From a virus: a stretch of 24,618 nt of DNA. The notes under the pieces are model-generated. The model did no database searches, was not told where the DNA came from, and saw only the letters and a program-made list of their open reading frames with translations. Of the stretch, positions 574-10,234 are shown one piece after another (position 1 is the first letter of the stretch; every line of letters begins with the position of its first letter). The translations under genes and the position numbers were made by a program. The DNA lies in IMG/VR virus record IMGVR_UViG_3300048505_000131, positions 1-24,618 of that record. One strand, 5' to 3'.

Positions 574-762
574 CTATGCGTTGCTAATTTTAATGAGCTT
601 TTCTTCCTCGTATGTCTCCACCTCGTTTAGGTGGTACAATACAGATTTGCCAACTTTTATAAAATTGGGGCCTTTTCTGACATTCCGCCAGTTGCTAAGC
701 GTTTTTGGTGTTAAGTGCCAGCGGGCTGCTAACTCTTGGGAGGTAAGAAAAGGCGATGACAT
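574..762 (-). CDS. AlpA/excisionase-like HTH protein
   Basis: This 62-aa DNA-binding protein carries a MerR-like winged helix of the HTH_17 type. The motif LTSQELAARWHLTPKTLSNWR (roughly residues 6-26) is followed by a wing containing KGPNFIKVGKSVLYHLNEVETY. Proteins of this size and fold act as phage excisionases or AlpA-type regulators, bending DNA at attP and steering the integrase toward excision. The start is supported by a strong Shine-Dalgarno (AGGAGA) just upstream. It lies between the repressor and the nuclease on the same strand, with its own promoter-like sequence and operator in the 66-base gap to the repressor. The HTH is clear; the excisionase role is inferred from size and the nearby integrase. 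Confidence 0.75.
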   Translation of the reverse strand: MSSPFLTSQELAARWHLTPKTLSNWRNVRKGPNFIKVGKSVLYHLNEVETYEEEKLIKISNA

Positions 763-828: not shown

Positions 829-1098
829 TTAGTCCTTATTTGTGTCGCCGTTTGTATTTTTAGGCATTTCTATGCCGGCCGTCTCAATGTTGAAGCACCG
901 ACAAATCTGGTGCAGGTCAACATGCAAGTTACGCGCAAATGCCGCGGCTTCTGCGAGCGACACAGCCCGCTCGCCATTCAGGCAGCGATTAATTGATGAA
1001 ACGTCCAGCTTCATGATACGGGCTAACGCCCGCTGAGATAGCTGCCTATCTGCTAAGCGGTTCTTAAACCAAATGGCGTCTGGTTTATCCTTTGCCAT
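829..1098 (-). CDS. Xre-family transcriptional repressor (CI/Cro-like)
   Basis: This 89-aa protein has a lambda-repressor-type helix-turn-helix at about residues 18-45: RQLSQRALARIMKLDVSSIN, then RCLNGERAVSLAEA. It ends in a short polar tail with no visible S24-type peptidase domain, so RecA-stimulated self-cleavage is unlikely by the LexA route. The start at MAKDKPDAIW is chosen because an AAGGGG sequence lies about 12 bases upstream and because the longer upstream reading is unlike the family. It sits in the lysogeny block opposite a divergent rightward operon, with TGTTG-N9-CAACA sites on both its flanks. It is the only classical repressor in the window and the natural candidate to bind all seven operators. 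The fold call is strong; its identity as the immunity repressor is inferred. Confidence 0.78.
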   Translation of the reverse strand: MAKDKPDAIWFKNRLADRQLSQRALARIMKLDVSSINRCLNGERAVSLAEAAAFARNLHVDLHQICRCFNIETAGIEMPKNTNGDTNKD

Positions 1099-1113
1099 TA
1101 CATTTATTCCCCT

Positions 1114-1213: not shown

Positions 1214-1228
1214 ATTGGAGAAAACATC

Positions 1229-1522
1229 ATGCGAGAAAGTTACGAGGCATTTATGAAGCGAACAAGCCGGGAGGCCAAAGAGGAGTGCGATTTGGTTGAG
1301 GAGCCAGCGCACTATGCGGGGCTGCCGATCGAGCCGGGTAAATTTATATTGGTCAACGGCCTCAGTTTTGTTGCCGGCAACATTGTTAAATATGCGTGCA
1401 GGGCAGGGCGCAAACGGTATGACGGCATGAGTGCCGTCGACAGCGAAATTACCGACCTCAAAAAAATTCAAAAGTATTGCCAGATGCGTATTAACCAACT
1501 GCGGGGGGACGACGTTGTCTAA
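1229..1522 (+). CDS. DUF3310 (SaV-like) protein
   Basis: This 97-aa protein matches the DUF3310 pattern common in tailed phages: PAHYAGLPIEPGKFI near residues 26-40, then LSFVAGNIVKYACRAGRK (46-62) and a C-terminal helix DLKKIQKYCQMRI. The family has been loosely called nucleotide kinase-like, but its biochemical role is not established. The start at MRESYEAF is chosen because TTGGAG lies at the right distance upstream. Its stop overlaps the next start in a TAATG, so the two are translationally coupled. It is transcribed away from the repressor and is probably under operator 3. Confidence 0.75.
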   Translation: MRESYEAFMKRTSREAKEECDLVEEPAHYAGLPIEPGKFILVNGLSFVAGNIVKYACRAGRKRYDGMSAVDSEITDLKKIQKYCQMRINQLRGDDVV

Positions 1523-1863
1523 TGGGAAGCCGTTTGTCACATTTCAAAAATTTTGCAGGAGCATGTGGCGAGAAAATTGCACAGAGCGCCGCCGATATAA
1601 TGAGACGACTAGTGACTTTATTACCTACAGCGCCGATAACATTTCTTGGCTTCGCAATGAATATAAGCACCGCTTTAGCAAGCATAAGAGACAGCGGCGC
1701 GGTTAAGCTTCTTGCGCTATTAAGTAGTTGGCTATTTTTTGCTGTTTGGTACACGCTCGTCGCGCTGTGCCTTTTACCGATTGCTTTAATAACTGGCATA
1801 CCTGCGGCGTTTTGGGCAGGCGGCGGCGCGGGTATTTTGTTTGCTATTGCCTTTTACCGGTGA
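1522..1863 (+). CDS. Small multi-pass membrane protein, function unknown
   Basis: This 113-aa protein has an amphipathic or basic N-terminus of about 35 residues. It is followed by strongly hydrophobic stretches around residues 35-50, 66-90 and 88-110, including the glycine-rich GIPAAFWAGGGAGILFAIAF. Two to three membrane helices are likely. It starts in the TAATG shared with the DUF3310 stop. I recognise no family. Position beside the repressor and attP would suit a lysogenic conversion or superinfection-exclusion role, or simply a membrane-anchored partner of the DUF3310 protein, but nothing in the sequence decides this. Confidence 0.6.
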   Translation: MGSRLSHFKNFAGACGEKIAQSAADIMRRLVTLLPTAPITFLGFAMNISTALASIRDSGAVKLLALLSSWLFFAVWYTLVALCLLPIALITGIPAAFWAGGGAGILFAIAFYR

Positions 1864-1869
1864 TATAGA
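1841..1869 (+). promoter_or_regulatory. Candidate promoter reading into the tRNA remnant
   Basis: TTGCTA (1841-1846), a 17-base spacer and TATAGA (1864-1869) preceded by TG (extended -10) form a promoter-like sequence at the end of the membrane-protein gene. It points rightward at the tRNA-Lys fragment starting at 1953. After integration it would lie upstream of the rebuilt tRNA. Each box matches consensus at only four of six positions, so this is tentative. Confidence 0.3.
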
Positions 1870-1901
1870 CTGCCCACGTTTCGGCTGAGGAAACAGGCAA
1901 A

Positions 1902-1923
1902 AACTTACCCAGGGGTTACCCAG
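1902..1923 (+). repeat. Direct repeats left of the att core (possible integrase arm sites)
   Basis: AACTTACCCAGGGG at 1902-1915 is followed at once by a partial copy, TTACCCAG, at 1916-1923. The same 14 bases recur at 2132-2145 on the other side of the tRNA fragment. Repeats flanking a core in the same orientation are what arm-type integrase binding sites look like. I see no excisionase footprint to add. Confidence 0.45.
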
Positions 1924-1952
1924 TAAATTGCCAACACGCTGAAACCCTTAGT

Positions 1953-1994
1953 GGGCCCGTAGCTCAGGTGGTAGAGCAACTGACTTTTAATCAG
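1953..1994 (+). other. attP core candidate: 5' half of a tRNA-Lys(UUU) gene
   Basis: From 1953 the sequence follows a tRNA-Lys gene: GGGCCCG acceptor strand, TAGCTCAGGTGGTAGAGC D-arm, then an anticodon stem CTGA / TCAG closing the loop CTTTTAA with anticodon TTT. After the anticodon stem the match stops. No T-arm or 3' acceptor strand follows, so this is not a functional tRNA. A tRNA fragment about 160 bases upstream of a tyrosine integrase is the signature of an attachment site. It is unusual in carrying the 5' half rather than the 3' half. Confidence 0.7.
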
Positions 1995-2064: not shown

Positions 2065-2083
2065 TATTGTGTTTACATCAACA
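2065..2083. promoter_or_regulatory. Operator 4 at the integrase promoter
   Basis: TATTGTGTTTACATCAACA fits the seven-site pattern with one mismatch in the left arm (TATTG for TGTTG) and a perfect right arm CAACA. It overlaps the -35 box of the integrase promoter. Confidence 0.5.
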
Positions 2084-2100
2084 CCCACAATCCCTATAGT
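2072..2100 (+). promoter_or_regulatory. Integrase promoter
   Basis: TTTACA (2072-2077), a 17-base spacer and TATAGT (2095-2100) each match the sigma70 consensus at five of six positions. Transcription would begin near 2107, about 45 bases before the integrase ATG. Confidence 0.55.
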
Positions 2101-2131: not shown

Positions 2132-2145
2132 AACTTACCCAGGGG
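2132..2145 (+). repeat. Second copy of the att-flanking direct repeat
   Basis: AACTTACCCAGGGG repeats the sequence at 1902-1915. Here its AGGGG also serves as the Shine-Dalgarno of the integrase gene, so a protein bound to an arm site would overlap the integrase translation start region. Confidence 0.45.
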
Positions 2146-2151
2146 AAAGAT

Positions 2152-3321
2152 ATGAAAGAGTATAAAACTGATAAGGTTGTTCCGCGCCTAAAGATACGCA
2201 CCGGCGCTAAGCGCAACAGCACCTATGTTTACCAGTGGAGCGAAGCCGGCCGTGCGCGGCGTATATCCTTGGGTCGCGTCGGCGCGATGACACTTATGCA
2301 GGCGCGCACGATTGCAAGAGAGCATGACGCGACACTTGCCAGCGGCGGGTCACCAGCCAACCGGCAGACTGCTTTGCGCCAAAATGCAACCCTCGCTGAT
2401 GTGTGGTCAGCCTGGTGGGCTGACCACGGCAGCAGCCTAAAGGATGCAAAAACAGCGCAAGGCTTTTACACAAATCACCTTTGCGAATATCACAATAAAT
2501 TGCTTAGTGAGATTTCTAACAATGCGATAAGCGCAACGCACCGACGAATAACCAAAGACGGCAAGGCGACGACTGCTAACCGCGTGCTGCAATTGCTTAA
2601 CCAGCTTTTTAGGTTTGCCATGTTTGATGACCGCTTCGATTGTGAGCGCAACCCGTGCGAGGGCGTGCGCCGAAATACTGAGCGGGCGCGCAAGCGCTAT
2701 CTAGACGCTGACGAGCGGCAGCGCTTTTTTACTGTCATCCAACAGCGCGCGCCTCAGTCTCCAGCCGGCGCAGCGTTTCTCATGCTTCTTATAACTACTG
2801 GCGCGCGCAAGAGTGAGATAGCCAATATGCGTTGGCGCGACTTGCGGGGAGATAAGGTTGTCTTGCAAAAGCACAAGACTGAGAGGCTAGGGGAGCGCGT
2901 GATACATTTGAGCCAAAGCGCCTTAGAGATTATCCGCGACTTGCCTCGCACTGACTTGGACGCGCCCATTGTTGGTATTAGGTCGCCGCGAGGATTTTTT
3001 GCGCGCTGCTGCGAGGACGCCGGCATCAAAGACTTCCGAATGCATGACTTACGGCACAGCTTCGCGTCGATCGGCGTAACCGCTGGCATGACATTGCATG
3101 AGATAGGCGAATTGCTGGGACACGCAAGCCCGCAGACGACAAAGCGCTATGCGCATCTTATGGAAGATGCGGCACAGCAGCGTGTCAATCTGATTGGTGA
3201 CTTACTCGCGGAGAAGCCCGCCGGCAAGGCCGCGCAGGCCGCCGGTCAAGCCGAGGCCAGTGCCGGTAGCCACTTGGCGGTTGCGCATCAGCGTCTCATT
3301 AAGCCGAGCGATGCGGTCTAG
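2152..3321 (+). CDS. int: Tyrosine-family integrase (site-specific recombinase)
   Basis: This 389-aa enzyme would integrate the phage at the host tRNA-Lys. The N-terminal 65 residues look like an arm-DNA-binding domain (YVYQWSEAGRARRISLGRVG). They are followed by a core-binding domain (about 75-180) and the catalytic domain. All active-site residues are visible: R219 in TTGARKSE, K242 in QKHKTE, H298 and R301 in MHDLRHSFAS, H324 in LLGHASPQTT, and the nucleophile Y333 in KRYAHL. The ATG at 2152 is preceded by AGGGGA; earlier in-frame starts lie in the promoter. The last 40 codons, an Ala/Gly-rich tail beyond the catalytic fold, overlap antisense with the end of the ejection-protein gene. Function is secure. 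Confidence 0.95.
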   Translation: MKEYKTDKVVPRLKIRTGAKRNSTYVYQWSEAGRARRISLGRVGAMTLMQARTIAREHDATLASGGSPANRQTALRQNATLADVWSAWWADHGSSLKDAKTAQGFYTNHLCEYHNKLLSEISNNAISATHRRITKDGKATTANRVLQLLNQLFRFAMFDDRFDCERNPCEGVRRNTERARKRYLDADERQRFFTVIQQRAPQSPAGAAFLMLLITTGARKSEIANMRWRDLRGDKVVLQKHKTERLGERVIHLSQSALEIIRDLPRTDLDAPIVGIRSPRGFFARCCEDAGIKDFRMHDLRHSFASIGVTAGMTLHEIGELLGHASPQTTKRYAHLMEDAAQQRVNLIGDLLAEKPAGKAAQAAGQAEASAGSHLAVAHQRLIKPSDAV

Positions 3322-5277
3322 CGCGCTCAACTGAGCGGCTGGGTTTTGCTCTGTTAACACGTCAGTGACTGCGTCGGCAGTGTTTCTGCCTCGCTGTTGA
3401 GTAAGGGCGCGCTCAGCCAGCCTCATGCCTGTGCCAGCCATATCTGAAAGCCTCGTCAAACGACTAGGGGTAACTTCACCAGCGTCGGTAAGCTTCTCAG
3501 CCGTATTAGAGCCGCCCATCACGCGACCCTTGGTCAGCGACATTTCACGCTCACGCTCTAGGCGCCGGACAAAGCGGGTAAGGGCTTCCGGGTCATCTTC
3601 AAACAAAATCTCAATGACCGCGTCATCTTTTTGCGACTTAGTCACCGCTTTGACGGCATTGCGGCCACGGTCAAGCGTGTCAAGCCGGGCAACCATCTCA
3701 TCTAGCGCACCAAGACGCAGCGCGTCTTTTTCCGCTTGCGTCATGCCCTTTAAGGATGCGCGCAATTCATCAGCCCGCAGGCCGCCGCCTTTTACTGCCT
3801 TGCGACCTGCCTGCTCGGCGGCCTCGACAGCAAATTCGTCTGCTGTGATTTTAAGCACGTCGCTATAGTCGTCGCCGACTGTAGCTTCGTTTTTCAGGCG
3901 GTCAGTAAATGCGCCAAGGTTTTTCTTGTCAGACGCAACGTCAAAGCCCTGCCGCTTTGAGCGATACAGGCGACGCCCCTCAAGGCGCTTGATGTCGTCT
4001 AAAACTTTCAGCGGCAAGCCGCCAAACACCTCTCCAGCTTCATCAATCAACATTGCCGGATTTTCTGGTAGCCGAGACATTATTTTGGTCGTGTCTTCGC
4101 CGCGAGCCAGCGCCTCATTTATCGCGCGCTCGCGCGCCTTACGATATGCTGAGGCATAATGTCTGTTTTGCACAACATTGCGGATAACCACATCATCGAC
4201 AATATTCTCATTAGCAGCATAGGCGGCCTTATAGAGGTTGCCGACAATTGGGTCGGCGCCTTGCAGGTCAACGAGGTTGTCGACCACTGCGGCGGCGTTT
4301 GCGTCTGCCGACTGAGGGCGAGCGTTTTCGAGTGATTTTTGTATGCGGCCGGCCTGCCCAATAACTTGCTGGTCGGGCGACAGCGCGCTCGGCGTGACCG
4401 CGCTTGTGCCTTGCTGGCGTACTGTCAGGGCGTCGTCGATACGGCCGGATGCGCCAGATGATACGGTGCGTGCGCCCCGTAGCAGGCGGCGCAGGGCATC
4501 ATTGCCATAGTCGACAAGCATTTCCTGACCGACATCTCCGGCAGCGGTGTCGGCTGCCTGATTTTGTAAGACTGCAGCGCGCATGCTGGCGGCGTCAACG
4601 CTGTCGTCAATCATTGCGTCGCCTACGCGCATGTCAGCGCGTTGCGCCGGGTTTCTGAATGCGCGTTGCAACCCGCGCGCCGCCCCATAGCCGGCAGCAC
4701 TTACGGGCGCTGCAATAGCCGCGCCAATCCCAGCGCCTTGCAGTCTGTCACCCAAACCCTCGCCAGCGCCAAACCCAGTAGCGGCACCCTGAGCCATGCC
4801 ACCTAATACGGCAGTCCTCATTGGCGCGCGAGCCGCAACATTAGCGAGCCGCGCGCTTGCGCCAATTGCGCCGACGGGCGTAGCAAAGCCGCCAGCCACG
4901 TTTGCTGTTAAGGCGGCGGCTGTTGCGCGCTGAAAGTATGCGTCTCGGTCGGCGCGGATTTTTGTTACCGCGTCGTCGTAGCTGTCGTCAGAAAAAACGC
5001 TGCGCACCAAAGCCTCAGCCTCGTCGGCGCCTTCAAAGGCGGCGCCGGCAAAAAGCTCGCGGGTAAACGCTGCGGCGCCCTCAGTCGGCACCTCGCCATA
5101 TTGGCGATAGTACTGCGCCGATGGGCGCAGTTCGTCATAACTATCATAGCCGTATTTTTTTGCGACAGTGTCAGCGGCTGCAAACGCGCGGAGCGCAGCC
5201 GTCTCATTTTGCTCTCCAGCCTTAGCCGCCTTGCCGGCAGCAATTGCCTCGTCCAGAATAGTTTTTAAGTCAGCCAT
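3202..5277 (-). CDS. Large internal virion / DNA ejection protein
   Basis: This 691-aa protein is the last of three long helical proteins that close the late operon, the position of ejection proteins in podophages (T7 gp14-16 and P22 gp7/16/20 analogues). Residues 1-110 are charged and helical. Residues about 115-205 are rich in Gly and Ala with glycine-zipper-like stretches (VAGGFATPVGAIGASARLA and GAGIGAAIAAPVSAAGYGAA) that could insert into the host membrane. The remainder is charged helix, ending GLTGGLRGLAGGLLRE. No enzymatic motif is visible. It follows the previous gene by 2 bases. The final 120 bases overlap the integrase gene tail to tail. The ejection role rests on composition and position, not on a named domain. 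Confidence 0.65.
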   Translation of the reverse strand: MADLKTILDEAIAAGKAAKAGEQNETAALRAFAAADTVAKKYGYDSYDELRPSAQYYRQYGEVPTEGAAAFTRELFAGAAFEGADEAEALVRSVFSDDSYDDAVTKIRADRDAYFQRATAAALTANVAGGFATPVGAIGASARLANVAARAPMRTAVLGGMAQGAATGFGAGEGLGDRLQGAGIGAAIAAPVSAAGYGAARGLQRAFRNPAQRADMRVGDAMIDDSVDAASMRAAVLQNQAADTAAGDVGQEMLVDYGNDALRRLLRGARTVSSGASGRIDDALTVRQQGTSAVTPSALSPDQQVIGQAGRIQKSLENARPQSADANAAAVVDNLVDLQGADPIVGNLYKAAYAANENIVDDVVIRNVVQNRHYASAYRKARERAINEALARGEDTTKIMSRLPENPAMLIDEAGEVFGGLPLKVLDDIKRLEGRRLYRSKRQGFDVASDKKNLGAFTDRLKNEATVGDDYSDVLKITADEFAVEAAEQAGRKAVKGGGLRADELRASLKGMTQAEKDALRLGALDEMVARLDTLDRGRNAVKAVTKSQKDDAVIEILFEDDPEALTRFVRRLEREREMSLTKGRVMGGSNTAEKLTDAGEVTPSRLTRLSDMAGTGMRLAERALTQQRGRNTADAVTDVLTEQNPAAQLSALDRIARLNETLMRNRQVATGTGLGLTGGLRGLAGGLLRE

Positions 5278-9544: not shown

Positions 9545-10234
9545 TTAATTACCATCGCTGACGTCAATCAGCGCGAGACGAGACTTAGTCTGCACATATT
9601 TTTCTAAGTCTTTTTCGCTAAGACTGGAAAGCCCTGCCCTGGCGGCAGCGCGCTGTCGGCGGTTTATTCTTACTTTCCCAGCCTCATCATATACAAGCCA
9701 GTATGGCATATATTTGTCGCCAATAGCAGACTGATAGTCCTTGTATGTAAACTTTCTTTGCGACTTGTAACAATGCCCCAATGCGGTGCATTTATTACAC
9801 AAGCTGGCACACGCAGATGGCTCAAACCCCCAATTACGCTTTCGGAAACCGTGTGCAAATAAGCTGTAGGTTTTGGGAATAGCTTTCCCTATGAAGTGAG
9901 GCGTTTTAATTGAACGCGGCACAATGCTGCCAACACCGCGCCACTTTGGGGCATTGCCCGGCGTGTGTTCGTCATACCCACCAGACAGGACAATGCTGAC
10001 ATTAGACCACGGGTGCGTGTGATAGTTGCCACCGTCAATGCCGTGGTCTGATTGTGGGATATGATGCAGCCATATATTAGGTAAGCGACGCGGCTTGGCT
10101 TTACCTAAGTCGACGTCTAATTCGTCTGGCTCAACACCTAAAAGGTAATATCTGAGAAATATGACACCGCCAAACGCATCCACATACGCTTTGCATCTGC
10201 CTGTCTTCTCAAGCCAATTAAGCAGCCATTTCAT
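9545..10234 (-). CDS. Cupin-like protein with a C-terminal cysteine cluster
   Basis: This 229-aa protein is not a typical tail component. Residues 55-135 fit a small phage-encoded cupin family: NIWLHHIPQSD, then HTHPWSNVSIVLSGGYDE with H72, H74 and E89 as possible metal ligands, R-G-VGSIVPRS, TPHFI with H113, TYSLFAHGFRKRNWGF. Related proteins typically read 'LHDHPW … L-GGY-E-T'. Immediately after comes CASLCNKCTALGHC (142-155), a C-x3-C-x2-C-x5-C cluster that could bind zinc or an iron-sulfur centre. The C-terminus is basic. It starts in a TAATG with the preceding gene. An enzymatic (oxygenase or sugar-modifying) or metal-binding role is possible; the substrate is unknown. Confidence 0.6.
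   Translation of the reverse strand: MKWLLNWLEKTGRCKAYVDAFGGVIFLRYYLLGVEPDELDVDLGKAKPRRLPNIWLHHIPQSDHGIDGGNYHTHPWSNVSIVLSGGYDEHTPGNAPKWRGVGSIVPRSIKTPHFIGKAIPKTYSLFAHGFRKRNWGFEPSACASLCNKCTALGHCYKSQRKFTYKDYQSAIGDKYMPYWLVYDEAGKVRINRRQRAAARAGLSSLSEKDLEKYVQTKSRLALIDVSDGN

Follow-up and report, generated by a model that had tools for sequence, protein, structure and literature searches.

In the 24,618-nucleotide stretch of viral DNA analyzed here (the window), the 5' half of a tRNA-Lys(UUU) gene lies beside a tyrosine integrase gene. We consider it very probable that this half is the attP core of a temperate phage, that recombination by the integrase takes place within the anticodon stem-loop of tRNA-Lys(UUU), and that the junctions proposed in the initial annotation result. 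The core was recognized from its sequence, from exact matches to host tRNA-Lys genes, and by a half-tRNA detector. It occupies positions 1953 to 1994 on the plus strand (GGGCCCGTAGCTCAGGTGGTAGAGCAACTGACTTTTAATCAG) and, as had been claimed, corresponds to nucleotides 1 to 42 of the host tRNA-Lys(UUU), comprising the acceptor 5' strand, the D-arm, the TTT-containing anticodon loop, and all but one of the five bases on the 3' side of the anticodon stem. It stops one base before the anticodon stem ends, with its anticodon end nearest the integrase gene (int). In the proposed model, homology to the host would lie on the side away from int and, because the tRNA points toward int, this side is the 5' half. 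Integration would leave the host promoter and the host 5' half in front of int, so that the near junction would read host promoter, 42-nucleotide half, CCCCGTCGATATTCC, and int, while the far end would hold a complete tRNA-Lys whose 5' half comes from the phage and whose 3' half comes from the host. The rebuilt tRNA-Lys would then sit behind about 150 bp of phage arm DNA, which would have to supply or transmit its transcription.

The integrase gene (2152 to 3321, plus strand) matches Phage_integrase, Arm-DNA-bind_3, and Phage_int_M (PF00589, PF13356, and PF22022), all above cut-off, which identifies a tyrosine integrase with an arm-binding domain. The distance from the core end at 1994 to the int ATG at 2152 is 158 bp, in agreement with the 160 bases initially given. 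A repeat search found the 14-bp sequence AACTTACCCAGGGG to the left (1902) and to the right (2132) of the core, and only three plus-strand copies of TTACCCAG in the window, the third of which, beyond those in the two 14-bp repeats, is at 1916. We regard these as putative arm-type integrase sites, the left group (1902 to 1923, plus strand) combining AACTTACCCAGGGG with TTACCCAG at 1905 and 1916 and the right one (2132 to 2145, plus strand) consisting of AACTTACCCAGGGG. To the left of the core are phage-type genes, including a PDDEXK_15 gene, an HTH_17 gene for a small DNA-binding protein that may be an excisionase or Cro-like (574 to 762, minus strand), a Cro/C1-type HTH regulator that is likely the repressor (829 to 1101, minus strand), a DUF3310 phage protein gene (1214 to 1522, plus strand), and a gene for a small hydrophobic protein (1522 to 1863, plus strand). 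Because of these genes and of the 14-bp repeat on both flanks, the core is an attP rather than an attL. If the window instead represented the left junction of an integrated prophage, the DNA left of 1953 would be host DNA and the 5' half the host's own; such a junction would indeed show a host promoter, a 5' half, and int, as in the tRNA-Arg island described below, but the phage-type genes in the left 1.9 kb, the match between the putative arm sites left of the core and the right one, and the different upstream sequence of empty host sites make this highly improbable.

The head genes encode an SU10-type major capsid protein and a portal, the latter with relatives that include Sinorhizobium phage phiM5 and pelagiphage HTVC106P; hence this is a tailed phage, and the virus contig is probably a fragment of its genome. 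No phage matched the window as a whole by megablast, and an exact-pattern search of IMG/VR, in which the D-loop bases of the 42-mer were allowed to vary, returned no match. Two palindromes, TTGTTCCCAGAACAA (1147 to 1161) and TGTTGTGATTAGAACAACA (775 to 793), flank the Cro/C1-type regulator gene and are likely repressor operators.

The exact 42-mer forms nucleotides 1 to 42 of an intact tRNA-Lys(UUU) gene in 3 of 385 sampled alphaproteobacterial genomes, all from one family of 28 genomes (1.1 to 2.0 Mb), in which we found 14 zero-mismatch places in 13 genomes. So long an exact match (42 nucleotides), in the register of a tRNA gene, far exceeds what chance would give. Identity to the host stops after nucleotide 42, where the intact gene runs on as TGGGTCGAAGGTTCGAATCCTTCCGGGCTCACCA, and in hosts with intact sites it extends leftward no more than 3 bp past the tRNA; upstream of empty host sites, the sequence is unlike that of the window. 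ARAGORN found no complete tRNA in the window and called tRNA-Lys(ttt) when the 42-nucleotide phage half was joined to the host 3' half. It is very doubtful, then, that integration kills tRNA-Lys function and that the phage relies on a separate tRNA. This lifestyle, tRNA-dependent lysogeny, is known from mycobacteriophages, targets tRNA-Lys-TTT there (PMC10865867), and resembles the present case in that part of the tRNA-Lys supply is moved to the phage. However, in those phages the homology to attB is only about 8 to 17 bp, a whole tRNA gene is encoded, and the host tRNA is not rebuilt, whereas here 42 bp are shared, the window lacks a tRNA gene, and the join rebuilds tRNA-Lys.

The earlier claim that a complete tRNA is rebuilt at the far junction behind phage DNA is borne out in two genomes of the host family, G411 (L295/L299) and G407 (L298/L300), and in a related island. 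In the two genomes, positions 1801 to 1994 of the window recur with 3 and 2 differences per 194 bp, respectively (98.5 to 99% identity), the host 3' half follows directly, and ARAGORN recognizes the joins as complete tRNA-Lys genes. The segment contains the P-arm side of attP (1801 to 1952, plus strand), with the arm sites and the truncated 3' end of the 1522-to-1863 gene, which persists from 1801 onward beside tRNA-Lys. The layout and a rebuilt tRNA-Lys behind this phage's arm were therefore observed directly, and the loci are read, from their sequence, as remnants of integrated relatives that kept the predicted far junction. Alternatively, the 194 bp could belong natively to the host and have been picked up by the phage through imprecise excision, in which case the two loci would not be old attachment sites. 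Host or cargo genes do lie about 12 bp upstream of the segment, and neither a near junction nor further window-phage DNA beyond these 194 bp was found at the loci, whose assemblies are fragmented. Yet the 3' end of a phage gene lies in the segment, as do two arm-type sites with a third copy on the other arm of the phage, and a closely related locus (L302, in G410) lacks the segment, which makes capture of host DNA unlikely.

The search for junctions in alphaproteobacterial genomes that the initial annotation had suggested thus yielded the far junction in G411 and G407 but no intact lysogen of this phage. An intact prophage with both junctions was absent from the genomes searched, host family included; a search of the host family with P0001 gave no match, and an integrase scan of reference genomes recovered relatives at up to about 35% identity, those with a call carrying mostly 3' halves. 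In the comparison of L300 and L301 (both G407) with L302, a 2.2-kb segment encoding an MDR-type oxidoreductase and a second protein adjoins tRNA-Lys; it lies in opposite orientations in two contigs of the G407 assembly and is absent from G410, and the host tRNA-Lys site looks like an island hot spot.

Both junctions can be followed in a more distant relative. In a second alphaproteobacterial family of 110 AT-rich genomes (about 0.9 to 1.6 Mb), which by our reading is SAR11-like, elements with integrases like that of L036, a viral contig carrying a tRNA-Val 5' half, are located at tRNA-Arg(ACG). One contig (C15 of G451; locus L238) contains both ends of a 9.75-kb island. At the near end, the host promoter (TATAAT, −13 to −8) is followed by the 42-nucleotide half (396 to 437), 152 bp, and int at 590; at the far end (10145 to 10221), a complete tRNA-Arg lies behind element DNA, and a 23-bp arm repeat is common to both ends. 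The integrase of this island shares only about 30% identity with the L036 integrase and falls far from the window integrase in the tree. The claim that a host tRNA promoter and a half tRNA face int at the near junction is accordingly upheld in this island, and by analogy the near junction and the crossover region, visible only in a relative, may be expected to be similar for the window phage. A perfect palindrome, GAACATTGTATGTTC, is located at 10096 to 10110 of L238, between the arm repeats and the rebuilt tRNA-Arg, and is possibly an operator over an element-borne promoter.

Native DNA precedes the tRNA at 22 of the 30 tRNA-Arg loci read (the native −10 motif being present at 21); at the other 8 it is replaced by element DNA that lacks a TATAA motif within 22 bp. 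Loci of both classes share a homologous host flank on the downstream side of tRNA-Arg, and the complete tRNA-Arg gene is single copy in every genome matched. The G458 island (L274) further records the origin of the two tRNA parts. Its near-end half reads GCGCCCG...GCGCATGA, while in its rebuilt tRNA GCGCCTG...GCGTATGA leads into the host's own 3' half ...CTCGGGCGC; since the single-nucleotide polymorphisms (SNPs) differ between the near-end half and the rebuilt tRNA, the rebuilt 5' half is element borne. The hybrid gene has a T-G pair in the acceptor stem, and the SNPs put the crossover in this relative, as distinct from the window phage, between about nucleotides 29 and 44. The integrase gene has been lost from the G458 copy and some others and is truncated in G430. 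With its empty sites, full islands, int-less islands, and 500-bp remnants, the tRNA-Arg family offers a set of natural experiments in which an apparently single-copy tRNA gene has been put behind the DNA of a mobile element without loss of the host.

As for how int is transcribed, transcripts from the host tRNA promoter could run on into int, as neither the window nor L238 has a terminator-like sequence on the coding strand from the half tRNA to int; RNA folding of the leader from core to int revealed no unusual structure (z = −0.26). There is close to an even chance, however, that the layout has no regulatory meaning, int being driven in both states by a promoter of its own, with a host-promoter transcript that ends early or is unstable, a reading compatible with our explanation of the junctions. 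A promoter-like TTTACA-17-TATAGT sequence between core and int (2072 to 2100, plus strand; 10 of 12 positions, with about 0.7 such matches expected by chance) is weak evidence for such a promoter of int. Against this stand the missing plus-strand terminator and the precedent of ICEKp1, ICEclc, and ICEEc1, in which int in the integrated state is transcribed from the host tRNA promoter after 3' integration (PMC13023037). In those elements, as would be the case here, int is preceded by that promoter on the same strand, although a full tRNA with its own promoter kept precedes int there and only a half tRNA does here.

We tentatively hypothesize, at somewhat less than even probability, a reciprocal promoter swap, in which the element gains the host tRNA promoter for int and the host tRNA gains an element promoter together with the 5' half. 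A phage promoter would then serve the rebuilt tRNA; sigma-70 scans called none directly before the 5' half in the window or the tRNA-Arg island. The sequence GCTGAAAC (1938 to 1945, plus strand; −15 to −8 from the tRNA start) is a candidate −10-like element for the rebuilt tRNA. It contains a TGAAAM hexamer, which the scans left uncalled and which lies at −13 to −8 in the window, in the tRNA-Pro phages, and in the tRNA-Arg island, the same offset as the native TATAAT in the tRNA-Arg family; that TGAAAM acts as the −10-like element of the promoter is a lead only. In two remnants (L247 and L269) the element is gone and tRNA-Arg still lies behind the element's last 49 bp, which are kept at 44 and 46 of 49 positions (pooled, 90/98), versus 18 and 16 of 26 for the adjacent arm sites (pooled, 34/52; Fisher P = 9e-5, calculated against one reference and uncorrected for shared ancestry). 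A working replacement promoter would be expected to outlast the decay of the arm sites in this way, and the pattern suggests that these 49 bp act as the tRNA-Arg promoter. If the swap is true, the element-borne promoter and 5' half of an apparently single-copy tRNA would remain in use even after loss of the element.

The general mechanism is already known, and the window phage represents an uncommon but known arrangement. Of the 3,919 islands in Islander, 159 have a 5' tDNA fragment, about 4% of mapped tDNA islands, and 3,760 have a 3' fragment (PMC4383910). These 5' islands resemble the present case in their tyrosine integrase, their crossover within a tRNA gene, the displaced 5' fragment upstream, and the rebuilt tRNA downstream; that work lists islands and, in the passages covered, leaves promoter exchange and the position of int behind a host promoter untreated (PMC4383910). 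Archaeal integrases of the pTN3 type likewise use the 5' half and part the rebuilt tRNA from its promoter, a situation that according to a review is seldom met in bacteria (PMC8371274, PMC5495485). The attP of pTN3 and TKV4 of Thermococcales also carries a tRNA 5' half, with 41 bp shared; however, their suicidal integrase has attP inside int, and the rebuilt tRNA uses the int promoter, whereas the window integrase is not of this type, as attP lies outside an intact, unsplit int, 158 bp upstream, and int would be at the other end from the rebuilt tRNA. What is added here is the documented exchange of the promoter region at an apparently single-copy tRNA, the SNP proof of a hybrid tRNA, and the repeated switching of halves inside one integrase family.

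The last of these emerged from a survey with a structural detector of tRNA halves, covering about 150 related integrase loci in viral contigs and genomes. After removal of near copies, 93 integrases were left, 50 of them with a 3' half on the strand opposite int, 5 with a same-strand 5' half, 1 with a same-strand 3' half, 1 with a complete tRNA, and 36 without a call. The layout initially described as unusual is thus the minority type among these integrases, most of which carry the 3' half, but it is not without parallel, given the known 5' islands at about 4% of those mapped. In nearly all called loci the anticodon end points toward int and the homology runs away from it; the exception is the L068/L071/L212/L213 group, whose same-strand 3' half runs toward int. 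Members of the 5' type are the window (Lys), the L036 family (Val; 17 contigs), L052/L053 (Pro), and the integrase of the G451 island (Arg). The first genome matches of the L036 integrase were tried as further members and rejected, L228 having a 3' half and L229 a full tRNA.

The integrase tree requires at least four changes between 5' and 3' halves; therefore, the layouts have arisen or been lost repeatedly, and since one integrase lineage includes both, the choice of half is a flexible trait rather than a fixed rule. The L213 integrase, for instance, is 59% identical to that of L052 and is accompanied by a tRNA-Val 3' half. Further, L212/L213 and L036 carry complementary halves of the same tRNA-Val(UAC), which overlap in the 7-bp anticodon loop TTTACAC and, for L213 and L036, together match a real tRNA-Val gene at 75 of 76 positions. 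This overlap points to the anticodon loop as the probable exchange region. In the window, homology ends at nucleotide 42, and in L036 and L052 it ends after the loop; the anticodon stem-loop is among the sub-sites of tRNA genes already known for crossover. Two other loci deserve mention. In L023, a related integrase near which no half was called is preceded, at about 540 bp, by a complete tRNA-Lys(TTT) (3389 to 3463, minus strand), and the locus is a candidate for tRNA-dependent lysogeny outside actinobacteria. L030, a single viral contig, has two tRNA-Lys 3' halves about 1 kb apart on the minus strand (3408 to 3448 and about 2450), perhaps nested or duplicated attachment sites.
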